From Nitrospira sp. (GTDB lineage: Bacteria; Nitrospirota; Nitrospiria; Nitrospirales; Nitrospiraceae): 12,539 bases of DNA. The notes beneath the pieces are model-generated. The model saw only the letters and a list, made by a program, of their open reading frames with translations, was not told the DNA's origin and did no database searches. This document shows, piece by piece, positions 1 to 12,539 of the stretch; position 1 is the stretch's first letter, and each line of letters opens with the position of its first letter. The stretch lies in assembly GCA_025361385.1 (NCBI GenBank), contig JANYAJ010000180.1, positions 1 to 12,539 of the forward strand, given 5' to 3'. Position numbers and translations under genes: made by a program.

Positions 1-1584
1 CGTCGCCGCCACCACCGTGTGGTTCATCGTCGCCGGGACCCAGCCCGTCGTCCGGTGACAGCTATCGCAGACAGCCGCCCGATTCGTCCCGCCTTTGTGA
101 TTCGTCGGAATGCCGGTCGACGAGACCCCATGACAACTGGCGCAACTCCCTGGCGTCACACCGGTATGGTTAAACGTGGCCGGGGTCCAGGCCGTCGTCG
201 TGTGGCACGTGTTACACGCGCCTGGTGCCAAGCCGCCCTTGTGGCCCGTCGGAATGCCGCGGGACAACGTATTGTTATGACAGGTCGAACAGGGGGTCGC
301 CGCTACCGCGCTATGGCTCATCGTCGCCGGCTTCCACACCGTCGTCCGGTGACAGCTATCGCAGGCGGCCGCCGCGTTGGTCCCACCTTTGTGGTTCGAC
401 GGAATGCCGCTCGACGTTTTCCCGTGACAGGTACTACAGGTGCCAGGAGTGACGTTTGCATGACTAAATGACGCGGGTTTCCACGCAGTCGTGGTGTGAC
501 AAACGTTACAAGCGCCCGGCGTTACGCCACCTTTGTGGCCCGAAGGAATTCCGGTCGACACCGCGCCGTTATGACAGGTCGAGCAGGGAGTCGCCGAAAC
601 GGATATATGATTCATCGTGGCCGGTTTCCACGCTGTCGTCCGGTGACAGCTATCGCAGGCAGCTGAGACGTTAGTCCCGCCTTTGTGGTTCGACGGAATG
701 CCGCTCGACGTTTTCCCGTGACAGGTACTACAGGTGCCTGGTGTCACACCCGTGTGACTAAACGTCGCAGGCCTCCAGGCTGTGGTCCGATGACAGCTAT
801 CGCAGGCTGCAGCCGGATTCGGGCCACCTTTGTGGCCAACGGGAATACCTGTGGCAGTCTTTCCATGACAAGTGACGCAGCTTCCTGGTGCCACTCCGGT
901 ATGGTTGAACGTTGTTGGTCTCCAAGCCGTGGTTCTATGGCAGCTGTCGCATGATCCAGGCACCATCCCGCCCTTGTGACCGGAAGGAACACCAGTCGCG
1001 TTGATGCCGTGACAAGTCGTGCAGGTTCCCGGCATCACACCTGAATGGTTATAACCATTCGTCACAAGCCTCCAGCTTCCACCGCCACCGCCCTTACGAT
1101 GGCACGAATCGCAAGAGGCCGCCGTGCTCATGTGACTCGTGGGTTTCCCTTCGGCGGTGGAGCCGTTATGGCATTTCGAACAGGTCCCCGGCAGAATCCC
1201 ATTGTGAGTAAAGAAGGCAGGTCTCCAGTTCGTGGTGCGGTGACAACTGTTACAGTTGACCGACGTCGGCAAGTGGTTCGCCGGCTTAAAGGTGGCGACG
1301 ACACGGCCTCCAGGCGAATGACATTGCATACATTGCGTCGGCGTTCCTCGAAAGATGCCCTGCAAATGGCACCGCTCGCACACGACCTGCGCATGGCCGC
1401 CGCTGAGCTGGAAGCCGGTACTGCTATGATCGAATTCGATGTCGGAACGACTGGTACGATTTTGGGCCGCCGCCTCGCTCGGCCACATGAAGCCAAGGCA
1501 CAACACTAGCGAGACAAGGAGCACTCCGATCAGCCGCACCGCACAAAACCGGCTGTTCAGACTGTTCATATTGGCAACGTCCAT
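1..1584 (-). CDS. Secreted tandem-repeat multihaem cytochrome c (at least 19 haems), C-terminus cut by the window edge
   Basis: The minus frame is open from the left edge to a TGA at 1612-1614. Of several ATGs I chose 1584, because AGGGG lies 7 nt upstream on that strand. The protein begins with a signal peptide: a basic n-region, a hydrophobic stretch at about residues 18-33, and cleavage near SEAAAQ (36-41). Then follow 19 CxxCH motifs, from CERCH (residue 69, bases 1366-1380) to CDSCH (bases 55-69), all in one frame. From 1023 down to 55 they alternate every 72 or 75 bases, giving a two-haem unit of about 49 residues: CDSCHRTTAWRPATFNH, then CxTCH, GIPxxHKGG. Each haem has one extra conserved His (NHxGV or GHKGG), so bis-His ligation is likely. 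It should be periplasmic or outer-surface and act as an electron wire. The family resembles cytochrome c3/c7-like repeat proteins; the redox partner is unknown. No stop is visible, so the true haem count is higher. Confidence 0.93.
   Translation of the reverse strand, partial: MDVANMNSLNSRFCAVRLIGVLLVSLVLCLGFMWPSEAAAQNRTSRSDIEFDHSSTGFQLSGGHAQVVCERCHLQGIFRGTPTQCMQCHSPGGRVVATFKPANHLPTSVNCNSCHRTTNWRPAFFTHNGILPGTCSKCHNGSTAEGKPTSHMSTAASCDSCHRKGGGGGSWRLVTNGYNHSGVMPGTCTTCHGINATGVPSGHKGGMVPGSCDSCHRTTAWRPTTFNHTGVAPGSCVTCHGKTATGIPVGHKGGPNPAAACDSCHRTTAWRPATFSHTGVTPGTCSTCHGKTSSGIPSNHKGGTNVSAACDSCHRTTAWKPATMNHISVSATPCSTCHNGAVSTGIPSGHKGGVTPGACNVCHTTTAWKPASFSHANVTPGTCSTCHGKTSSGIPSNHKGGTNAAAACDSCHRTTVWKPATMSHSAVAATPCSTCHNNTLSRGIPTGHKGGLAPGACNTCHTTTAWTPATFNHTGVTPGSCASCHGVSSTGIPTNHKGGTNRAAVCDSCHRTTGWVPATMNHTVVAAT
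55..951 (-). repeat. Tandem haem-module repeats inside the multihaem cytochrome gene (147-bp unit, 294-bp super-unit)
   Basis: The CxxCH codons at 55, 130, 202, 277, 349, 424, 496, 571, 643, 718, 790, 865 and 937 are separated by alternating 75 and 72 bases, so the two-haem unit is 147 bp. A four-haem super-unit of 294 bp is also visible: the CDSCH sites at 55, 349 and 643 share flanks, and 386-444 is identical base for base to 680-738 (59 nt, offset 294). This suggests recent internal duplication or gene conversion, and it is a place where short-read assembly could collapse or expand copies. Confidence 0.9.
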
Positions 1585-1658
1585 ATTCATTCCCCTACAC
1601 ATCCGCATACATCAACCCTCGCCCACGCACCTCGGCTCTTCTTGCCTGATAATATTAT

Positions 1659-1674
1659 TGGGAATATAATCCCA
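1659..1674. promoter_or_regulatory. Operator-like dyad 1 (TGGGA-N6-TCCCA)
   Basis: TGGGA at 1659-1663, a six-base spacer ATATAA, then TCCCA at 1670-1674; the dyad extends one more pair to TTGGGA/TCCCAA. It lies about 75 bases upstream of the minus-strand cytochrome start. Its half-site centres are 11 bp apart, about one helical turn, as expected for a dimeric helix-turn-helix regulator. The cognate regulator is not in the window. Confidence 0.65.
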
Positions 1675-1704
1675 ACTTAAGACGCGCACCATATCACCTC
1701 AAGA

Positions 1705-1720
1705 TGGGAAAGCAATCCCA
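1705..1720. promoter_or_regulatory. Operator-like dyad 2 (TGGGA-N6-TCCCA)
   Basis: TGGGA at 1705-1709, spacer AAGCAA, TCCCA at 1716-1720. Arms and spacer length match dyad 1, with its centre 46 bp from that of dyad 1. The spacer differs in sequence while the arms are conserved, which argues for protein binding rather than a copied element. Confidence 0.65.
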
Positions 1721-1879
1721 AATTCACTGACCGGTGCTACGCAATAGGTATACCGTTCCGGCTCAATCCCCTAACGCCATGATTTGCCACAGAAGACCAG
1801 ACAGAACAAACCCACTAATCGCGTACGAATAAGACTGTTTGGAACGGAGCTGAAGGGAAATGCAGACACCGAATACAAA

Positions 1880-1895
1880 TGGGAATATGATCCCA
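1880..1895. promoter_or_regulatory. Operator-like dyad 3 (TGGGA-N6-TCCCA)
   Basis: TGGGA at 1880-1884, spacer ATATGA, TCCCA at 1891-1895. Dyads 2 and 3 also share the flanks (AT before, AAT after). This copy is about 45 bp upstream of the sigma-54-like element at 1941-1956, a placement compatible with an activator site for the plus-strand operon. Confidence 0.65.
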
Positions 1896-2028: not shown

Positions 2029-2952
2029 ATGCCGTCGGCAGAGTTAATCCAAGCAGAACAACGCACCACGAGCACTACGGCCCCTCGACCGTCGCCCGCT
2101 CACGCCAGGCCTGCGAAGGAACAGGAGCCCTCTTCTTCTAGGATAGGTCAGCTTGGTGGGGCTATTATCTTAAGTGTCTTGAGCTGGGCCTCCTATGAGG
2201 CAGCCTATGGGAAGTACTACACGCCCCGCTCGAACTTTGGATTCTACCTCGGCGTCGTCGGCACGGTCATGATGCTCTTATTACTGGCCTATCCGCTCCG
2301 CAAACATGTGCCGTGGATGCAGCGGTGGGGAGCACTTAAAAACTGGTTTCGCATCCACATGATCATGGGCATCGTCGGCCCAACCCTTATCCTGTTCCAT
2401 TCGACCTTTCATATCCGATCCACCAATGCAGCCGTGGCGCTCTTCAGCATGCTGGGGGTCGTCATCAGCGGTATCATCGGCCGCTTCGTCTACACCAAGA
2501 TTCATTATGGCCTCTACGGCAGCCGCGCGACGCTGGGGAAAATTCAGGAGAAATTTGCAGGCCATTCGAATGATGCCAAATCCAGACTGCACTTCGCCCC
2601 CCGTGTCGAGCAATGGCTCCATTCATTCGAACGCGACTCGACGCAAATCGATCGCTCCTTCCTTTCGCATCTCCTCCACTTCCTGACGCTTGGCTTCAGG
2701 AGAGGCATCCTGGGATTCCGTTGTGCGAGAGAGCTGCGACGGATTCTGAAGACCCAACGGTGTGCAGAGTTCCCTGGCGGGGCATCGGAGGCGATTCAGT
2801 TGGCGTCATCGTATTTGAGAGAAAGCCAGCGTGTCTCTCAGTTTAGTACCTACGAACGCTTCTTTGCGTTGTGGCACGTGCTTCACATTCCGCTGATCTA
2901 CATCCTGGCCGCGAGTACGGTGTTTCACATCATGGCCGTCTACATGTACTGA
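2029..2952 (+). CDS. Five-helix membrane protein, probable di-haem b-type cytochrome (ferric-reductase / cytochrome b-like)
   Basis: The frame is open from a GTG at 1945, but ATG 2029 is preferred because AGGAGGAG lies 9-11 nt before it. That gives 307 residues. A polar N-terminal tail (1-38) precedes hydrophobic helices at about 41-58, 71-90, 109-125, 134-155 and 283-305, with a basic cytoplasmic-type loop of about 120 residues between helices 4 and 5. His110 and His124 (RIHM, FHST) are 14 apart, as are His286 and His300 (LHIP, FHIM). This is the spacing of bis-His ligands in membrane b-type cytochromes, so two b haems are plausible; His128 and His283 are also nearby. The likely role is electron exchange between the quinone pool and the haem protein encoded 15 nt downstream. 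No flavin or NAD(P)H domain is present, unlike full ferric reductases. The exact family is uncertain. Confidence 0.8.
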   Translation: MPSAELIQAEQRTTSTTAPRPSPAHARPAKEQEPSSSRIGQLGGAIILSVLSWASYEAAYGKYYTPRSNFGFYLGVVGTVMMLLLLAYPLRKHVPWMQRWGALKNWFRIHMIMGIVGPTLILFHSTFHIRSTNAAVALFSMLGVVISGIIGRFVYTKIHYGLYGSRATLGKIQEKFAGHSNDAKSRLHFAPRVEQWLHSFERDSTQIDRSFLSHLLHFLTLGFRRGILGFRCARELRRILKTQRCAEFPGGASEAIQLASSYLRESQRVSQFSTYERFFALWHVLHIPLIYILAASTVFHIMAVYMY

Positions 2953-2967
2953 GGCCTATCAACGATC

Positions 2968-4764
2968 GTGCGCGCCTCACCGAATTACATTTCCCTGCTT
3001 CTCCTCAGCACCTTGATGCTCATGGCCACGCCGGCCCTGGCAGACAACGTCGAGACAGCGTTGATGCCAGGACAAGTGATCGAAGGCCATGCCAAATGGG
3101 AGGAAGATTGCGCCAAATGTCACAAACGCTTCGACAAGGGGGCGCAGAATACGCTCTGCCAAGATTGCCACAAAGACATCCGCAAGGACATCGAGCAAAA
3201 GCAGGGCTCTCACGGACGGTTCAAAGAGCAGCGGGACTGCAAGTCATGCCACACGGAGCATAAGGGACGAGCGGAGAATATCGCTCCGATGACGGACCAG
3301 ACGTTCGATCACGAGCGGACGGACTTCCCGCTCAAGGGCGCCCATGCCAACGCCAAGAAGGTCGAGTGCAAGGCCTGCCATAAGCCCAAAGCCAAGTATC
3401 GCGACGCGCCGTCCGATTGTTATGCCTGCCACAAGAAGGACGACAAACACAAAGAAAACTTGGGCTCTGCCTGCGCAGACTGTCATACCGAGAAGAACTG
3501 GAAGGACACGGCGGCGAAGTTCAATCACGACAAGACGCGTTACCCGCTCCGCGGCAAACACGTCGACGCCAAATGCCAAGACTGCCATCCCAATGAGCGG
3601 TACAAGAACACGCCGATGGATTGCCTCTCCTGCCACAAAAAAGACGACAAACACAAAGGACAGGAGGGGACGAAATGTGAGGAATGCCACGACGACCGGT
3701 CCTGGAAGAAATCGCCGTTCGACCATAACAAATCTCGTTTCCCGTTGATGGGCAAACATGCCAAGGTCGAGTGCAAGAAGTGCCACCTGACCCCTTCCTT
3801 CAAAGATGCGCCGCTAGATTGTTATGTCTGTCACAAGAAAGACGACAAACACAAAGGGAACTACGGAGAGAAATGCGAGAGCTGCCACGCGGAAAGCGAT
3901 TGGAAGACCATCACGTTCGATCATGATTTGCACTCCAAGTACCCGCTACGAGGCCGGCATATCACGACAAAATGCGAGTCCTGCCATAAGGGGCACCTCT
4001 ATAAGGACACCACGCCTGTCGCCTGCTTGGCCTGCCACACAAAAGACGACAAGCACAAGGAAAAATTTGCTGAAAGATGTGACACCTGTCACACAGAACG
4101 GAATTGGAAACTGCTCCTCTTTGAGCATGACCACGACACGAAATATCCGTTGAGAGGGAAGCACCGAACGACAAGGTGTGAGTCCTGTCACAAAGGGCAT
4201 CTCTACAAGGACACCACGCCTGCCGCCTGTTTGGCCTGTCACAAAAAAGACGACAAGCACAAGGGACAATTTGCCGAGAAATGTGAAACCTGTCACACGG
4301 AACGGAATTGGAAACTGCTCCTCTTTGAGCACGACCACGACACAACATATCCGCTACAAGGCAAACACAGAACCGCGACCTGCGAGAGTTGCCATACGGG
4401 ACGACTCTATCAAGACAAGACACCCACAGCCTGTTATGCCTGCCATACGCTCGACGACCTACACCGGCGCCGGTTGGGCACCGAGTGCCAGAACTGCCAC
4501 AGCATACGAGACTGGAAGCTCTGGGACTTCGATCACGATACCAGGACCCGATTCAAGCTGGAGGGCGGGCACAAAGGAGTCGAATGTGCTGCGTGCCATA
4601 AAGATCGGATGGAGGCGAAGGTCAAGACGTCAGCACAATGTGTCAGTTGCCATAAGAAAGACGATAAACACGAGGGGAATTATGGCCTGCAATGCGAACG
4701 CTGCCATGACACGTCGATATGGAAGAGCCTCAAGTCCGGAACGGGATCGTTTCGTTTCCGATAG
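2968..4764 (+). CDS. Secreted 24-haem cytochrome c built of three-haem modules
   Basis: The start is GTG 2968, 15 nt after the previous stop, and gives 598 residues. A signal peptide (hydrophobic about 8-20, cleavage near ALA-DN at 25-26) targets the periplasm. I count 24 CxxCH motifs from CAKCH (residue 48) to CERCH near the C-terminus. From the fifth motif on, the pattern is a 66-68-residue module: CxxCH-KKDDKHKG, CxxCH-TExxWK, FDHD, YPLRGKH, CxxCH. Each module supplies three extra His (DDKHK, FDHD, GKH), enough for bis-His ligation of three haems. Mature regions are rich in Lys and His. Two adjacent modules are nearly identical in DNA. The role inferred is a periplasmic or envelope-spanning electron conduit taking electrons from, or giving them to, the b-type membrane protein encoded upstream. 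The function of the exact family is not known to me. Confidence 0.93.
   Translation: MRASPNYISLLLLSTLMLMATPALADNVETALMPGQVIEGHAKWEEDCAKCHKRFDKGAQNTLCQDCHKDIRKDIEQKQGSHGRFKEQRDCKSCHTEHKGRAENIAPMTDQTFDHERTDFPLKGAHANAKKVECKACHKPKAKYRDAPSDCYACHKKDDKHKENLGSACADCHTEKNWKDTAAKFNHDKTRYPLRGKHVDAKCQDCHPNERYKNTPMDCLSCHKKDDKHKGQEGTKCEECHDDRSWKKSPFDHNKSRFPLMGKHAKVECKKCHLTPSFKDAPLDCYVCHKKDDKHKGNYGEKCESCHAESDWKTITFDHDLHSKYPLRGRHITTKCESCHKGHLYKDTTPVACLACHTKDDKHKEKFAERCDTCHTERNWKLLLFEHDHDTKYPLRGKHRTTRCESCHKGHLYKDTTPAACLACHKKDDKHKGQFAEKCETCHTERNWKLLLFEHDHDTTYPLQGKHRTATCESCHTGRLYQDKTPTACYACHTLDDLHRRRLGTECQNCHSIRDWKLWDFDHDTRTRFKLEGGHKGVECAACHKDRMEAKVKTSAQCVSCHKKDDKHEGNYGLQCERCHDTSIWKSLKSGTGSFRFR
3970..4375 (+). 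repeat. Near-identical 204-bp tandem modules within the 24-haem gene
   Basis: Two consecutive units of 204 bp (68 residues) align with few differences. CTCTATAAGGACACCACGCC at 3997 recurs as CTCTACAAGGACACCACGCC at 4201, and GAATTGGAAACTGCTCCTCT at 4101 recurs at 4305. The other modules of the gene are much more diverged, so this pair looks like a recent duplication. Confidence 0.85.
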
Positions 4765-4810: not shown

Positions 4811-6373
4811 ATGCATCACAAAGACATCTCACATATTCTTCGCCTCCTCACCTGTTTCCTCGTCCTATTCCTGGTCTACCAGATCTGGCTGAAACCGACC
4901 TATTTCAGTCCAGTGCCATTGCCTCAACCGCCCGCGGGGCCTGCGACATTCCCCCCTCCCTCAGATCCTGATCAAGCCCTCAGGGTAGAACATGGGCGGT
5001 GGAGCGAGCCACAAACACGGCTCCTAGAATCCGGTCAGCCCCCAAACTCGAAACTTGGTTCGATTCGAGAGGAGCTTGAGAAGGGAAACTACGCCGAGAC
5101 CGAACGTCATCTGCGCGCACTCCCTGAAAAAACGCTCGCGAACACACAAGTCCGTAAATATGTTGCCGCGCTCTGGAATAATCTCGGCATTCAACAGGAA
5201 AAGTTCGGCGGGATAGAAGTCTCGGTCAAAGCGTTCAAGCGATCCGTCGCGCTCGATCCATCGAGCCCCATCGCGCACCTCAACTTGACCCAGGCCTACT
5301 GGGGGCTGCGCGATCCAGCGATGACGCCTCAGTTTCTTGAAACAGTGATTCGCCTCATCCCGCAGGATCCGTTCCCCCATCTCGCCCTCGCGGATCTCCT
5401 GTTAGAGAAAGGCCAAGTTACCGTGGCAGCCAACCACCTGAGCCAAGCCCGCACAAGAGCAGAGGCCGATGCCACGCTGCGGCCTTACCTGAAAAAGTTG
5501 ACCGCCAAAGCCGAGTTCGCTACTCCAGTAAACCAATCGGTCGCACGCGTGGCCCCTTCCTCCACATTCGTCGCACCGACTCCCGGCCCACAAGACAGGC
5601 AGCTCCCTCCATCCGTTGCGGTACCAGCAAGCCAGGAGCTCGCTGCAACCATAAGCCCATCGGAGGAACGCCCACGACAGCTCTCTCTTCATGAAACTGG
5701 GCATTTCACCGTTCAGTTTGACGGATCTCCTGATCATGCGACCTGGGCCCGCATGAAGGCAATCCTGGACTATGCACACGAAGAGATCACTCAAAAATTC
5801 GGCCACGTCCCCACTACACCCATAACGGTCATCCTTCATACCAACCAGAAATTTGTCGGACCGCCTGGCTCCCCCATCTGGGCCGATAGCTTGTTTGATC
5901 GCACCTCCGGTGCCATCCACATTCCGACACAGGGTGCGCTGGAGGACTTAGCCCTGTTCAGCCGCATCGCTCGACATGAATTCGTCCATGCCCTTCTCTT
6001 TGAGTACCTGAAAGGGCGCAGCACAGTGGCACCCACCTGGCTCATAGAGGGTCTCGCGATGCACTTAGCGGAAGATCCCTGGTCGGACATGGAAGAGACC
6101 AAACAGCCCGGTGCGGCTCTTATTCCACTGACCTCATTACAAGGAGCATGGGGGAAACTTCCGAGTGGATCGTTGTTAACCGCCTATCTCGAAGCGAGTT
6201 CGGCGACGCAACTTCTTCTGGATAGTTATAGTCTGCACAACGTGCGGCAGGTGATGAATGCATTACGAGAGGGACGGTCGCTTGATGCAGCCATGCAACA
6301 AAAGTTGTCGGTGCCGTACGACCAGTTTCAGCGCCAGTGGGAAAAGACCAGCCGGCAGCCGAATAACGGATGA
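4811..6373 (+). CDS. Membrane-anchored TPR protein with C-terminal peptidase MA-like metallopeptidase domain
   Basis: The protein has 520 residues. One N-terminal hydrophobic segment (about 9-25) acts as signal anchor and is followed by a Pro-rich linker (33-55). Helical repeats of TPR type span about 83-215 (NLGIQQE, AFKRSVALDPSSPIAHLNL, ALADLLLEKGQV). A second Pro/Ser-rich linker (235-285) leads to the peptidase domain from about residue 297. HEFVH (389-393) is the zinc-binding HExxH, and WLIEG supplies the third ligand Glu413, the gluzincin arrangement. The active site is therefore intact. The gene follows the 24-haem gene by 46 bp on the same strand, so it is probably in the same operon and faces the periplasm. 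It may help assemble, mature or turn over the multihaem cytochromes; this is inference from context, and the substrate is unknown. Confidence 0.82.
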   Translation: MHHKDISHILRLLTCFLVLFLVYQIWLKPTYFSPVPLPQPPAGPATFPPPSDPDQALRVEHGRWSEPQTRLLESGQPPNSKLGSIREELEKGNYAETERHLRALPEKTLANTQVRKYVAALWNNLGIQQEKFGGIEVSVKAFKRSVALDPSSPIAHLNLTQAYWGLRDPAMTPQFLETVIRLIPQDPFPHLALADLLLEKGQVTVAANHLSQARTRAEADATLRPYLKKLTAKAEFATPVNQSVARVAPSSTFVAPTPGPQDRQLPPSVAVPASQELAATISPSEERPRQLSLHETGHFTVQFDGSPDHATWARMKAILDYAHEEITQKFGHVPTTPITVILHTNQKFVGPPGSPIWADSLFDRTSGAIHIPTQGALEDLALFSRIARHEFVHALLFEYLKGRSTVAPTWLIEGLAMHLAEDPWSDMEETKQPGAALIPLTSLQGAWGKLPSGSLLTAYLEASSATQLLLDSYSLHNVRQVMNALREGRSLDAAMQQKLSVPYDQFQRQWEKTSRQPNNG

Positions 6374-7195: not shown

Positions 7196-8737
7196 GTGAA
7201 GACCCTGAAGACTGTGGAAGATTTGACGACCAGACTCTTGGAGATCCAGCGCATTAACAGCGCGGCCGCGCTTCTCTCCTGGGATCAAGAAACCTATATG
7301 CCGACCGGCGGGGGCGAAGCCCGCGCCGAACAGATTTCGACGCTCCAGGGCATTGCGCACCAGAAGCTCGTCTCACCGGACATTGAACGATTACTCGCCG
7401 CCTGGATCGATTCAGAGACTGGTGAGATGCGTGACAGCCCCGGAGATGCTTGGGACGAGCCCTCTCGATCGTTGCTCCGTGAAGTGTGGCGTGACTACAG
7501 CCGCGCCAAAAAACTCCCCTCAGATTTTGTGGTGACGCTCAGCCGGGAATGTTCGCTGGCACAGCAAGTCTGGGCCGAGGCGAAGAAGGCGAGCAACTTC
7601 GCCATGTTTCTGCCGAACCTGCGCACCATCCTGTCGCTCAAGCGGCAGGAAGCCCAGTATCTCGGTTATAAGGACTCGCCCTACGATGCACTGCTGGACG
7701 TGTATGAACCGGGGTCGACCATCGCCGCACTCCGCCCCTTGTTCGCGCAAGTCAAAGCGCGTCTCGTTCCGCTGCTGCAGAAGATTCAGAACAGTTCAGT
7801 GCAAATCGACGATGCCGCGCTCTTCCGCAGCTTCGACGTGACCCGACAGATGGAATTCGGCCGGTTAGTCTTGATGGCCATGGGCTACGACTTCGAACGG
7901 GGACGCCTCGATCTGTCGGCCCATCCCTTCACGACCTCCTTTCACCCGACGGACGTGCGCGTCACGACGCGTGTCTTCGAACATGATCTGCAATCCTGCT
8001 TATTCAGCTGCATCCATGAAGGAGGCCATGGCCTCTACGATCAGGGACTCGACACGCGTTACTATGGGACGCCGCTCGGCGATTCAGTCTCGCTGGGCAT
8101 TCATGAGAGCCAGTCGCGCATGTGGGAGAACTGCGTGGGCCGCTCGCGATCCTTCTGGCGCTTTTTCTATCCCCTGCTGCAACAGACGTTTCCTCAGCAA
8201 TTGGGTGCGCTCGATGGGGAGCAATTCTATGCGGCCATCAATCGCGTCAAACCGTCGATGATTCGAGTCGAAGCCGACGAGCTCACCTATAATCTCCACA
8301 TCATGCTGCGGTTTGAAATCGAACAGGATCTCATCGAAGGGCGGACGAACCCGGAGGACCTGCCGGGGATCTGGAACCGGAAGATGGAAGAATACCTGGG
8401 CATCGTCCCCGCGAACGATGCGGAAGGGGTGCTGCAAGACGTGCATTGGTCGTTCGGCGCCTTCGGCTACTTCCCGACCTACACGCTCGGAAACCTGTAC
8501 TCCGTTCAATTCTACGAACAGGCCCAGCGGGAAATTCCACGGCTGGAGGAAAAAATTACGGCAGGGCAACTCATGGAGCTACGACGCTGGCTCGAACAGA
8601 AGATTCACCGCTGGGGCCGGATGTTCACGCCGGACCACCTGGCCCAACGCGTGACGGGGAAAAGCCTCGATCCTGAACCGTTTCTATCGTATGTCGAGAA
8701 AAAATATGGCGAGATCTACCGGCTCACGGGATCGTAG
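7196..8737 (+). CDS. M32 family metallocarboxypeptidase (carboxypeptidase Taq type)
   Basis: The frame also has an ATG at 7166, but GTG 7196 follows GGAGGAG (7178-7184) at 11 nt and yields 513 residues beginning MKTLKTVEDL, closer to the family's usual N-terminus and length. LLSWDQETYMP near the N-terminus is a family hallmark. HEGGH (274-278) is the HExxH zinc site, and HESQSR (303-308) carries the third ligand, Glu304. The motif YNLHIMLRFEIEQDLIEG further on is also typical. It is a cytoplasmic zinc carboxypeptidase that removes C-terminal residues from peptides with broad specificity. There is no signal peptide. It appears monocistronic, and its 3' end overlaps the convergent neighbour by 22 bp. 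Confidence 0.95.
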   Translation: MKTLKTVEDLTTRLLEIQRINSAAALLSWDQETYMPTGGGEARAEQISTLQGIAHQKLVSPDIERLLAAWIDSETGEMRDSPGDAWDEPSRSLLREVWRDYSRAKKLPSDFVVTLSRECSLAQQVWAEAKKASNFAMFLPNLRTILSLKRQEAQYLGYKDSPYDALLDVYEPGSTIAALRPLFAQVKARLVPLLQKIQNSSVQIDDAALFRSFDVTRQMEFGRLVLMAMGYDFERGRLDLSAHPFTTSFHPTDVRVTTRVFEHDLQSCLFSCIHEGGHGLYDQGLDTRYYGTPLGDSVSLGIHESQSRMWENCVGRSRSFWRFFYPLLQQTFPQQLGALDGEQFYAAINRVKPSMIRVEADELTYNLHIMLRFEIEQDLIEGRTNPEDLPGIWNRKMEEYLGIVPANDAEGVLQDVHWSFGAFGYFPTYTLGNLYSVQFYEQAQREIPRLEEKITAGQLMELRRWLEQKIHRWGRMFTPDHLAQRVTGKSLDPEPFLSYVEKKYGEIYRLTGS

Positions 8738-9294
8738 CCCATCGCCTGATTCAGCTTGGCGAGCGCCGGCGCAGGCAGCAAAAACTCCGCCTGCACCTCG
8801 ATTCGGGACGGAACCAGAAGAGTCGTATGAAAGACGATATCGCGAATCGCGATCTTAAACTCAGGATCCTGAGGCGTACTGAGTTCAACTGACTCGACCG
8901 ACTGGGTAATGGCTCCGCTATCTTGAGGGCCGTACACCGTTACGACCGCCTTCAAAATCTCCACAACCTTCTCGTTCGTCTCAACCCCCTCAATACCCTT
9001 CTCCAACAAGGGAATGGCCTCTTCCCGTGCTTGGTCAGACAGCGAGAAGTTTTCCACCCGCTCTTTCCGACGCAATGAGGTGAGATCGTTGTCGAGATCC
9101 TTGCTGAACGCCCCGTAGGCGAACCGGAAAAATTCGAAGTGGAAACCCTTGAATCCCTTGCCGAACATCTGCAGCTCGCATAAGAAGCAGAGCTGCTGCA
9201 ATTTCACATCGCTGAGCAACCCATGCGGCTCCGCCAGGTGCAGGACGTAGAGCAGGAGGGCCCGGTCGACCGTGATTTGATTGGGTTTTCGCAT
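8716..9294 (-). CDS. Panacea / SocA-like (DUF4065-related) protein
   Basis: The protein has 192 residues. The segment KLQQLCFLCELQ (31-42), then FHFEFFRFAYGAFSKDLDNDL (52-72 region, key residues F-YG-F-L), resembles the Panacea domain core: KLQKL-like helix, then a YGPxxxxL-like turn. Known Panacea proteins are often antitoxins or proteolytic adaptors paired with a toxin. No toxin-like gene is adjacent here; the neighbours are a carboxypeptidase and fur, so a toxin-antitoxin role is not supported. The start ATG is backed by GAGG 9 nt upstream on the minus strand. The last 22 bp overlap the carboxypeptidase gene in convergent orientation. The family assignment is by eye and moderate; it could be another phage-like 'Gp' domain relative. 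Confidence 0.6.
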   Translation of the reverse strand: MRKPNQITVDRALLLYVLHLAEPHGLLSDVKLQQLCFLCELQMFGKGFKGFHFEFFRFAYGAFSKDLDNDLTSLRRKERVENFSLSDQAREEAIPLLEKGIEGVETNEKVVEILKAVVTVYGPQDSGAITQSVESVELSTPQDPEFKIAIRDIVFHTTLLVPSRIEVQAEFLLPAPALAKLNQAMGYDPVSR

Positions 9295-9451
9295 TCGCTG
9301 ATGCCTCGCTCGTGCCGTGTGTGGGACGGCGCACTATAAACAGCGCCGGAGTTCTCCGTCAATTCCTCTCCCCCCGCTCCGGCTCCCAACAGGATGCCCC
9401 TTGACCGGCCGAGCCGTTTCGTCTTTAATGAGGCCCCATCGGAGGCCCGTC
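9295..9451. promoter_or_regulatory. Divergent promoter region between the Panacea-like gene and fur
   Basis: This gap of 157 bases must hold the promoters of both flanking genes. TATAAA at 9335-9340 could be a -10 hexamer in the fur direction, but I see no convincing -35. GGAGTTCTCC (9348-9357) is a short palindrome. No clear Fur-type operator is visible here, so autoregulation of fur is not shown. Confidence 0.3.
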
Positions 9452-9886
9452 ATGGCAGCGAAGCATGTGAAAGAAATGGAGGCGCTCAAGGAGCACCTCG
9501 GCAAGCATCAGCTCAAACTCACGCGCCAACGTGAATTGATTCTGAGCGCCTTCCTCCGGCAAGAGCACATTACCGCGGAAGCCATGTATCACCAACTGGC
9601 CAAGTCCGATCCACATCTCGGGCTCGCCACCATCTATCGAACACTCAATCTGTTCTGCGATGCCGGCCTTGCACAAGCCCGCCATTTCGGCTCTCAGACG
9701 CAGTACGACAACATCGCGCACAAGGGCCACCACGATCACCTGATCTGCACCGGCTGCGATAAGATTGTAGAGTTTGAGAACTGCGACATTGAGCGCCTTC
9801 AGGAAGAAGTGGCGACCCAGAACGGATTTATCATCAAAACTCACCGACTTGAGCTCTACGGCCTCTGCTCCCGCTGCCGCCATTGA
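9452..9886 (+). CDS. fur: Fur-family metal-dependent transcriptional repressor
   Basis: The start is ATG 9452, with GGAGG (9441-9445) 6 nt before it; the upstream in-frame ATGs lack such a site. The product has 144 residues, the usual Fur length. The winged-helix DNA-binding region includes LTRQRELIL (23-31) and the recognition helix LATIYRTLNLFCDAGL (58-73). The metal-binding and dimerisation half has HKGHHDHLICTGC (90-102) and a second CxxC (C139-C142), giving the two CxxC pairs of the structural zinc site. It senses Fe(II) and represses iron uptake genes; PerR or Zur identity cannot be fully excluded from sequence. The gene directly precedes ferric-iron ABC transporter genes, which supports the iron-responsive reading. 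Confidence 0.9.
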   Translation: MAAKHVKEMEALKEHLGKHQLKLTRQRELILSAFLRQEHITAEAMYHQLAKSDPHLGLATIYRTLNLFCDAGLAQARHFGSQTQYDNIAHKGHHDHLICTGCDKIVEFENCDIERLQEEVATQNGFIIKTHRLELYGLCSRCRH

Positions 9887-9912
9887 CGAAACCGCTTTTT
9901 TTTAGTATCATT

Positions 9913-9929
9913 TTGAGACAGCTTATCAA
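9913..9929. promoter_or_regulatory. Candidate Fur-type operator upstream of the iron-binding protein gene
   Basis: TTGAGACAGCTTATCAA is an imperfect palindrome (TTGAgA...TtATCAA) in an AT-rich stretch just after fur. Its outer parts recall the TGATAAT/ATTATCA halves of the Fur box, and a further TTTCAATT follows. It lies 23-39 nt before the ATG at 9952, in position to block transcription or initiation. Consensus match is only partial. Confidence 0.35.
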
Positions 9930-9951
9930 TTTCAATTCCATAAGGACCCCC

Positions 9952-10992
9952 ATGATATTTGTATGCTCTCTCCCAACATGGCGCCGGACCATGCTCTCCT
10001 CTCTCCTGCTGCTCGTGGTCGCCTGGATCTTCGTGCCCTCCGCCCCAGCCGCCGATAAAATCACCATCTACTCCGGCCGCTCGGAACGTCTCATCAAACC
10101 GGTACTCGATGCCTTCACAGCAAGCACCGGGATCCAGGTCGAACTGTTGTCCTCCGGCACGACGGAATTGGTCAATCGGCTGAAGGCGGAAGGCGAGCGC
10201 ACATCGGCCGACCTCCTGATCACCAACGACGCCGGCAGCTTGGAGTTAGCACGGACCGCCGGCCTCCTCTGCCCCCTGAACATGCGGGAAGTCGAACGGG
10301 CGATTCCCGCGCAGTTTCGCGCACAGGACAATGCTTGGGTGGGTCTCTCCGGACGATTCTGGATCGTGGTCTACAACACCACGATGGTCAAGCCGGACCA
10401 AGTGAAGTCGCTCCTCGACCTCGCCGATCCAAAATGGAAAGATAAGATTGCGATTCCGAATTCGGGCAGTGAATATCTGCAAGCCGGCGTCTCGGTCATT
10501 CGCGCCACGCATGGCGAGGAGAAGACCAAGCAATTCCTGCAAGGCCTCAAGGCCAATGCGGATGGCCAGGTCTACCAGAAAAGCTCGCAGATCGTGGATG
10601 CCGTCGCCAAGGGGCAGGTCGCACTGGGCATCGTGAATCACTACTACATATACCGTCACCTAGCCGCGCAACCAGGAGCACCTATCGCGGCGTTGATGCC
10701 CGACCAGCAAGAAGGCGGAATGGGGGCCATTATGAACGTTGCCGGCGTCGGCATCGTCAAGTCGACCAAGCACCTCGACAGTGCGAAGTTGCTCGTGGAA
10801 TTCCTGGTCGCTCAAGCGGGACAGAAGTTGTTTGCCGATCTCGACAAGGAGTACCCCCTCCATGCAGATGTGAAAGCAGATCCGGCGCTCGCGGACCGGA
10901 AGAGTTTCCGTGCCGCGCTGGTCCCCCTCAGCAAATTGGCTGAATTGCGCGAACCGACCCTCACACTGATCGAACAAGTGGGTCTCCGGTAA
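9952..10992 (+). CDS. fbpA: Periplasmic ferric-iron-binding protein of an ABC transporter
   Basis: The frame is open from further upstream, but ATG 9952 has AAGGA 5 nt before it and gives 346 residues; ATG 9991 is an alternative. The signal sequence has a hydrophobic core at about 15-29 and cleavage near APAA (31-34). The mature start KITIYSGRSERL (36-47) is typical of the iron(III)-binding family, with Tyr40 in the place of an early iron ligand. NHYYIY (229-234) supplies the tyrosine pair of the metal site. The bilobal type 2 periplasmic binding fold is implied by the family. It captures Fe(III) in the periplasm and delivers it to the permease encoded 15 nt downstream, so the two are one operon. 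Proximity to fur and the candidate palindrome suggest iron repression. Confidence 0.9.
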   Translation: MIFVCSLPTWRRTMLSSLLLLVVAWIFVPSAPAADKITIYSGRSERLIKPVLDAFTASTGIQVELLSSGTTELVNRLKAEGERTSADLLITNDAGSLELARTAGLLCPLNMREVERAIPAQFRAQDNAWVGLSGRFWIVVYNTTMVKPDQVKSLLDLADPKWKDKIAIPNSGSEYLQAGVSVIRATHGEEKTKQFLQGLKANADGQVYQKSSQIVDAVAKGQVALGIVNHYYIYRHLAAQPGAPIAALMPDQQEGGMGAIMNVAGVGIVKSTKHLDSAKLLVEFLVAQAGQKLFADLDKEYPLHADVKADPALADRKSFRAALVPLSKLAELREPTLTLIEQVGLR

Positions 10993-11007
10993 TCGAAGGA
11001 ACCCACC

Positions 11008-12539
11008 GTGAGCACGATTCGCCGCCAACTGACGTCGCCACTCCAACTCTTCGCCTTAGCGACGGCTGGCATCATCCTGCTCCCGCTCGGGTACGTCACA
11101 TCACAAGCCCTCTCCGCCGATCCCGCCGTCTGGAGCCGCTTGTGGGCAACCCGTATCCCCGAGCTCCTGTTCAACACCGTCTCACTTGCCGCCAGCGTGG
11201 CGGTCATCACCTTGTTCCTCGGCGTGTCGACCGCCTGGCTGGTCACTCGTGTGGAGTTTCCCGGTCGCAGACTATGGGAGGGGGCGCTGGTCCTTCCATT
11301 GGCAATGCCAACCTATGTGCTGGCCTACGTCTACTCCTACATTCTTGGGTTCGGCGGTCCCGTCGAGCATGTCTGGCAACTCCTGGCAGGGCCTCAGGCC
11401 AGGATTTTTTCTCCCCATAGTTATTGGGGTGCGACACTGGTGATGGCGCTGGATACGTTTCCCTTCGTCTATCTGCTCAGCCGGAGTGCGCTCCTCAGCA
11501 TGAACGTGTCGTTCGAAGAGGTAGCGAGGGCCAGCGGCGTCTCCCGCCTCTCGACCCTCTGGCGCGTTACCCTGCCGCTGATGCGCCCCTCGATCGCCGC
11601 CGGTGTCGCGCTCGTTATTTTGTATGTGGTGTCGGACTTCGGCGCGGTGTCGTTGCTGCGCTACCAGACCCTCACCTATGCCGTGTTTCAGCAGATGACC
11701 GGCCGATCCGACAATACCGCGGCGAGCATCTTGAGCCTCTTATTGGTCGGGCTGGCGCTGATCTTCCTGATCACGGAACGCTGGTTCCGGCAGAAGAGCC
11801 GGTTCTATCAGACCACCGGTCGCTACCGAGCTCCGCAACGGCAGCGTTATGGATGGCTCGGCACGCTTGCCGTCACCGGCTATCTCGGACTGATCGTCGG
11901 CGCAGCCTTCGCACTTCCGGCCGCACTCTTGATTCAATGGAGCCTGTCGCCGGAGGCACAGGCCACCCTCGACAGCCGCTTCTTCGGGTTCGTCTGGAAC
12001 AGCGGCATCCTGGCGGCCAGTGCTGCCACCGGCGGCGTCTTAATCGGCTTGCCGCTCGCCTATCTGGCGAGCCGCCGCCCGACCTTCCTGAATCTGAGCT
12101 GCCTCCAAGCTGCCTATGCCGGCTATGTGCTACCGGGACCAGTTGCGGCCCTAGCCGTCCTCGTCCTCTTTACCAAGCTGGCCCCAGTGTTTTATGGCTC
12201 AGTCCTGATCCTGATCGTGGCCTACGTGATCCACTTTCTCCCGGCCGGGCTCCAGTCGCTGGAGCCGGCGCTCCAGCACATTACGCCAAACCTCGAAGAG
12301 GTCGCACGCACGCTCGGCCTTGGCATGCGCGAAACCTGGCGCCGGGTCACCCTGCCGCTCGTCCGGAACGGATTCGTCGTCGCCTGGGTCTTGATGTTCC
12401 TGCAAACAATGAAGGAGTTGCCCGCAACCCTCTTGTTGCGGCCGGTGGGATTCGACACCCTGGCCATTCGCGTCTGGATGGAAGCGAGCGAGGAATATTT
12501 TCAACTCGCGGCCCCTTCGGCACTCTTGATTGTCGTACT
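11008..12539 (+). CDS. fbpB: Ferric-iron ABC transporter permease, two fused membrane domains, C-terminus cut by the window edge
   Basis: The start is GTG 11008 with AAGGA 7 nt before it. The frame stays open to the right edge: 510 full codons are visible, and family members are usually about 530-560 residues. Two homologous halves each carry multiple hydrophobic helices and an EAA loop that contacts the ATPase: EEVARASGVSRLSTLWRV from residue 170 and EEVARTLGLGMRETWRRV from residue 430, each followed by TLPL. This duplicated layout is typical of FbpB/SfuB-type permeases. It moves Fe(III) across the inner membrane in the complex with the binding protein encoded upstream. The ATPase gene is not in the window and may lie just beyond the edge. 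Confidence 0.92.
   Translation, partial: MSTIRRQLTSPLQLFALATAGIILLPLGYVTSQALSADPAVWSRLWATRIPELLFNTVSLAASVAVITLFLGVSTAWLVTRVEFPGRRLWEGALVLPLAMPTYVLAYVYSYILGFGGPVEHVWQLLAGPQARIFSPHSYWGATLVMALDTFPFVYLLSRSALLSMNVSFEEVARASGVSRLSTLWRVTLPLMRPSIAAGVALVILYVVSDFGAVSLLRYQTLTYAVFQQMTGRSDNTAASILSLLLVGLALIFLITERWFRQKSRFYQTTGRYRAPQRQRYGWLGTLAVTGYLGLIVGAAFALPAALLIQWSLSPEAQATLDSRFFGFVWNSGILAASAATGGVLIGLPLAYLASRRPTFLNLSCLQAAYAGYVLPGPVAALAVLVLFTKLAPVFYGSVLILIVAYVIHFLPAGLQSLEPALQHITPNLEEVARTLGLGMRETWRRVTLPLVRNGFVVAWVLMFLQTMKELPATLLLRPVGFDTLAIRVWMEASEEYFQLAAPSALLIVV

Follow-up and report, generated by a model that had tools for sequence, protein, structure and literature searches.

Which protein reads the three dyads with identical arms that lie between two divergent cytochrome operons of a Nitrospira genome, and in which direction does it act? 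The window analysed here is the whole stretch of DNA that contains them, 12,539 bp in length. A sequence-only reading of the window had described three copies of a TGGGA-N6-TCCCA dyad, each with its own spacer, and had taken them for binding sites of one dimeric regulator shared between two redox operons and controlling both directions. A pattern scan agrees with its coordinates and spacers: exact copies of TGGGANNNNNNTCCCA occur at the three places listed in Table 1 and nowhere else in the window. The conserved unit is slightly longer than first stated, with T or A before TGGGA and A after TCCCA. With up to two mismatches allowed, the window holds 12 matches compared with a shuffle mean of 6.4, and 8 of 200 shuffles reach 12. 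The dyad signal thus sits in the exact matches.

Table 1. Dyads, promoter-like sequences and genes of the control region and its flanks (window coordinates).
Feature	Position	Strand	Description
Left gene	1..1608	-	Multihaem cytochrome, truncated by contig end; 19 CXXCH in the remaining portion
Promoter-like sequence 1	1642..1670	+	TTGCCT-17-TATAAT; 10/12 matches; -10 box inside dyad 1
Dyad 1	1659..1674	.	TGGGA-ATATAA-TCCCA; centre contains TATAAT box of promoter-like sequence 1
Dyad 2	1705..1720	.	TGGGA-AAGCAA-TCCCA; centre without promoter box
Promoter-like sequence 2	1863..1891	+	CAGACA-17-TATGAT; 9/12 matches; -10 box inside dyad 3
Dyad 3	1880..1895	.	TGGGA-ATATGA-TCCCA; centre contains TATGAT box of promoter-like sequence 2
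Right gene 1	2029..2952	+	Membrane protein, 307 aa; no Pfam match above cut-off
Right gene 2	2968..4764	+	Multihaem cytochrome, 24 CXXCH
Right gene 3	4811..6373	+	TPR / peptidase-MA-like protein; weak Pfam matches only

Right gene 1 was given a start at 2029 instead of the listed GTG at 1945, since CAGGAGGAG is found shortly before 2029 and the orthologue in a related genome (G008) starts at that place. Scanning positions 1550-2100 for promoters gives two promoter-like sequences compared with 0.6 expected. When the dyads are tested for a -10 box in the centre with a -35 box 16-18 nt upstream, dyads 1 and 3 have the pair and dyad 2 does not. Both promoter-like sequences face right and the same scan finds none that faces left, which leaves the left operon without a good promoter. 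The earlier proposal is supported as far as a common dimeric regulator of the dyads is concerned; for the proposed control in both directions, promoter-like sequences are found on the right-facing side only. Farther along the window, a Fur-family gene is followed by an ABC-transporter solute-binding protein and permease (9317-12537, + strand; Pfam), an iron-uptake-like set, and a 192-aa ORF on the - strand (8716-9294) has no Pfam match at E<=0.001.

Conservation of the dyads was followed in related genomes. At least one exact site is present in 18 of 20 relatives, many of them with GC-rich centres that resemble background, and the reversed pattern is present too. In two relatives (G009 and G008), all three dyads recur at near-identical spacing, again between these divergent cytochrome genes; G007 has two of the three. 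Of the 32 genus genomes, 13 have a clear orthologue of right gene 1, and the window's own genome is one of them. Weaker matches (E 1e-9 to 5e-15) do not count towards the 13, including one in G026 that covers 33 residues at 70% identity. Three exact sites occur at the loci of the window's genome (G000), G008, G009, G038 and G037, two at those of G007, G036, G022 and G029, and one at those of G027, G034 and G023. The locus of G004 has no exact site and none within one mismatch, though that genome has the candidate regulator introduced below. In an alignment of the 13 regions (545 sixteen-base windows), dyad 1 ranks 1, dyad 2 ranks 4 and dyad 3 ranks 215, the last having disappeared or decayed at roughly half of the loci. 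Exact sites thus persist at 12 of the 13 orthologous loci, which supports the view of the dyads as sites for one dimeric regulator. Conservation upstream of orthologous cytochrome loci had been named in advance as a check, and neither background frequency nor missing conservation came out. The dyads are best read as operators.

A candidate for the regulator comes from other places where the dyad occurs. In four genomes (G009, G008, G007 and G003), the same dyad stands directly at the start of a gene that is followed by a lipoprotein-like gene. Pfam assigns the two genes at two of these loci to DUF6502 (PF20112) and DUF5666, and in G004 the dyad precedes another DUF6502 gene. The motif had not been assigned to any named regulator in the sequence-only reading; DUF6502 can now be named as the candidate. 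It is found in 16 of the 32 genus genomes (17 genes). Upstream DNA is available for 15 of these genes. The exact dyad is present at 11, GGGA-N6-TCCC at one and a dyad altered in both arms at another; the sites of the remaining two have decayed. In the DUF6502 paralogue L055 (G007:C71, around 1463-1480), both arms have changed together, to TGGGC-TATTTT-GCCCA, and the helix-turn-helix (HTH) reads GLPRKEV compared with GLTRKEV. The window's own genome encodes DUF6502 at the very end of contig C460 (G000:C460:1-789, E 5.9e-124); the promoter of this gene is cut off by the contig end, and near relatives (G007, G008, G009 and G038) carry the dyad there.

The association extends beyond the genus, the dyad holding its fixed place at DUF6502 starts in two phyla. 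A scan of named genomes gives 67 DUF6502 loci, mostly from Nitrospira and Burkholderiales and some from gammaproteobacterial MAGs. The set used for counting has 64 loci: L096 and L100 (start inside the gene), L102 (although upstream DNA exists for it), and L087 (which has the dyad but is an apparent copy of L086) are omitted, and the paralogue L055 is added. With start codons chosen by script, an exact dyad that begins 17-22 nt ahead of the start codon is present at 40 of the 64 loci, that is, in 15 of 30 labelled Nitrospira and in 25 of 34 others, a group that includes L055 (Nitrospira) and L104 (unclassified). The looser GGG-N8-CCC is found at the same place in 48 of 64 (raw count 49, of which L078, at -56, lies elsewhere). 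At 1204 other ORF starts in the same DNA (-60 to +12), there are 5 exact and 26 loose matches. There remain 24 DUF6502 genes without the exact dyad, 16 of them without even GGG-N8-CCC there. Among 18 genes of the close subgroup the exact dyad is present in 13; at least two of the 18 (L191 and L197) are already counted and L203 probably too; the 15-gene, 64-locus and 18-gene counts overlap (e.g. L071 and G008) and are not independent.

The dyad at DUF6502 genes coincides with a promoter-like sequence, as dyads 1 and 3 do. In 48 DUF6502 loci, the dyad centre contains a -10-like hexamer that is paired with a -35-like hexamer 16-18 nt ahead of it. The mean score is 8.2/12 compared with 4.3 at random positions, the AT-rich dyad centre adding to the former. 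In 57 of 64 loci, a script finds a closely following gene, which matches DUF5666 in 42 and DUF4382 in 15. All 57 partner lipoproteins have an invariant lipobox cysteine, and a conserved glycine-rich stretch (consensus GGGIGGTG) comes just after it in both the DUF5666 and the DUF4382 types.

Whether the sites go with the protein can be asked at the level of whole genomes. The window's genome is a 3.05-Mb draft (562 contigs, 82% complete) with 6 exact sites compared with 2 for the reversed-pattern control, and 3 of the 6 lie within the 237-bp stretch of the window that holds the dyads. The remaining three resemble background: two (C11:710 and C391:808) fall within ORFs, and the third (C177:4938) forms the centre of a longer hairpin. 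This hairpin, GAAGTGGGA-GTGCCA-TCCCACTTC, stands shortly after an ORF (L031 4938-4953, that is, G000:C177), occurs also at L038 3795 and is kept in two genomes; it looks like a terminator-like structure that mimics the operator pattern. The genus genomes with DUF6502 together have 85 exact sites in 52.9 Mb compared with 21 for the control, about fourfold, whereas those without DUF6502 have 22 in 46.5 Mb compared with 15. A Mann-Whitney test on sites per Mb gives p 7.6e-6 for the sites and 0.71 for the control, the former being too small since the genomes are related. The excess over background that had been anticipated thus holds across genus genomes with DUF6502 but is small in the window's own genome. 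The cytochrome locus is accompanied by DUF6502 in 12 of 13 genomes.

Outside the genus, the pattern is sparser. Sixteen Burkholderiales genomes, selected because the dyad stands at their DUF6502 gene, together hold 20 copies of TTGGGA-N6-TCCCAA: 16 are at DUF6502 and 4 are elsewhere. The reversed control occurs 3 times. Apart from its own operon, the regulator may have few targets in these Burkholderiales. At two Burkholderiales loci (L133 2847 and L123 2877), a second exact dyad lies between divergent ORFs about 3 kb from DUF6502 and is a possible further target. At the DUF6502 loci L160, L161, L168 and L170, a cytochrome gene with 30-33 CXXCH follows. Other genes near a site in Nitrospira-type genomes encode PKD-domain proteins (L027, L037 and L163), an NHL-repeat protein (L161, with look-alikes at L160 and L168) and a NapC/NirT-type cytochrome (L155). 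We group these as surface and redox proteins. Genes that resemble those of cytochrome c maturation (ccm), recognised from sequence, lie between the DUF6502 operon and the cytochrome locus at L025 (4897-13240) and L026 (5026-13370).

The sharpest evidence on which protein reads the palindrome comes from a distant DUF6502 subgroup. DUF6502 is found in 118 of 299 genomes of one Burkholderiales species' family, and many of these proteins belong to the distant subgroup, with an HTH such as GVHRRDV. From this part of the match list, 40 upstream regions were used in the order listed (E 3e-27 to 5e-22; G323, whose match begins at profile position 37, was skipped, and L222 is the gene of L219). GTGGGA-N5-TCCCAC, with at most 2 of 12 mismatches, is present in 24 of the 40 compared with 1.1 expected from block shuffles and absent from 16, and the N6 form is present in 0 of the same 40 (0.6 expected). 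Of the 24 matches, 23 lie within 250 nt of the matched start, and inspection of distant loci by eye finds a clear N5 palindrome in 7 of 12. Operator spacing thus tracks the protein subgroup, and no other observation argues as strongly for DUF6502 itself as the reader of the palindrome. Public records also hold the coupled pair under the names DUF6502 and DUF5666 on plasmids of Azospirillum, Rhizobium and Methylocystis, with no stated function; the Azospirillum and Methylocystis pairs have the N5 palindrome upstream, and two Rhizobium loci have neither form.

It could be argued that a different regulator reads the dyads, with DUF6502 being no more than a target. One candidate would be the response regulator that is encoded with a histidine kinase upstream of DUF6502 in G007-G009. 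Immediately upstream of the site at L025 and L026 there is indeed an ORF for a response regulator, together with a HisKA/HATPase kinase, and two genomes have sites with no detected DUF6502: G027, with the cytochrome locus and one exact site there, and G035, with 5 sites compared with 0 for the control. However, site and DUF6502 occur in a different context in G003, and the dyad stands at DUF6502 with other neighbours in Burkholderiales. The spacer varies with the DUF6502 subgroup, and the mere 4 additional 18-base sites in the Burkholderiales genomes (picked, as noted, for the dyad at DUF6502) are as for a self-regulator. We consider another reader of the dyads unlikely. A shared dimeric regulator for the dyads is well supported, and DUF6502 is most likely that regulator.

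A structural model of DUF6502 has helices 31-49, 59-66 and 70-78 arranged as an HTH (pLDDT about 85-94); an earlier model built from 10 close sequences was set aside (pLDDT 46.7). Taken together, the sequence comparisons suggest that DUF6502 is probably an autoregulated dimeric repressor and that its operators in the window control multihaem-cytochrome genes. The mechanism would be as follows: A DUF6502 dimer would place one HTH on each dyad arm. At DUF6502 genes and at dyads 1 and 3, where the operator centre is the promoter -10 box, the bound protein would exclude RNA polymerase. The first target of the repressor would be its own operon, which consists of DUF6502 and the coupled DUF5666/DUF4382 lipoprotein, and in Nitrospira-type genomes it would additionally control genes for multihaem cytochromes and other surface proteins. 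In the window, dyads 1 and 3 would cover the two right-facing promoter-like sequences, and cooperative or looped binding at dyad 2 could extend control to the left operon. We infer binding of DUF6502 to the dyads, repression rather than activation, and control of the left operon.

An operator over the -10 box of a recognisable promoter suits repression, and the dyad at DUF6502 genes spans the -10 box of a recognisable -35/-10 pair. This speaks against a second possibility, which we regard as decidedly improbable, that DUF6502 reads the dyads as an activator in the manner of HetR, the best fold resemblance found and a protein described as activating target genes in the available text of PMC4649674. 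A third possibility, that the dyads work as RNA hairpins (attenuators or terminators) or are repeats that arose by chance, is very improbable and was set aside. In its favour, the C177:4938 match is such a hairpin, dyad 3 scored as terminator-like on the - strand (one found, 0.7 expected) and arms changing together would fit an RNA stem too. Against it, a -10-like box lies within dyads 1 and 3 and within the DUF6502 dyads, so that much of their length would be upstream of the transcript start; no Rfam family reaches threshold in the window, and position and conservation are far from chance.

Repression by DUF6502 would be of a familiar general kind. Like autorepressors that sit over their own -10 box, DUF6502 has a palindromic operator on its own operon promoter and few further Burkholderiales targets. 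In contrast to them, its protein family and operator are undescribed in the literature searched: a literature search (without subscription papers and preprints) did not find DUF6502 or the dyad motif as strings, and DUF5666 does appear in the text available there.

The resemblance to HetR is one of predicted structure. HetR, which regulates heterocysts and cell differentiation in cyanobacteria, is the best match to the predicted fold of DUF6502 (Foldseek E 1.6e-4), and on this model the two may be distant structural relatives. By sequence, 0 of 58 DUF6502 members match the HetR family (PF03574/PF18460) at E<=10, and the profile-profile probability is 0.2 with a thin HetR alignment (Neff 1.3). 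A PDB sequence search with DUF6502 gives no meaningful match, an NCBIfam search with two DUF6502 proteins gives no match, and HetR-like proteins on plasmids give only weak partial matches (E 5 to 9). The HetR binding site is GGGnnnnnCCC in the available text of PMC4192349, a spacing of n5 that differs from both GGG-n8-CCC at the window dyads and GGG-n7-CCC in the distant DUF6502 subgroup. Among the matches listed by a search that had subscription papers and preprints outside it, no paper is by its title on HetR relatives outside cyanobacteria. Tentatively, and with the balance leaning against it, DUF6502 can be pictured as a widespread non-cyanobacterial branch of the HetR fold, whose autoregulated dimers act on GGG...CCC palindromes with subgroup-dependent spacing. 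HetR would then have its origin in an older family of bacterial regulators, from which it was recruited. A peptide or surface signal for the hood-like domain, of the kind that PatS provides for HetR, might even come from the coupled lipoprotein, in which a conserved glycine-rich stretch follows the lipobox.

If the reading of DUF6502 as an autoregulated repressor is true, a domain of unknown function that has thousands of relatives (3857 proteins match at E<=0.001) would gain a role, an operator code and its first regulon, and the multihaem-cytochrome genes of Nitrospira-type bacteria would gain a named regulator. Operator spacing tied to protein subgroup offers a direct test of site choice by DUF6502 proteins, and the DUF6502 link makes the origin of HetR testable.
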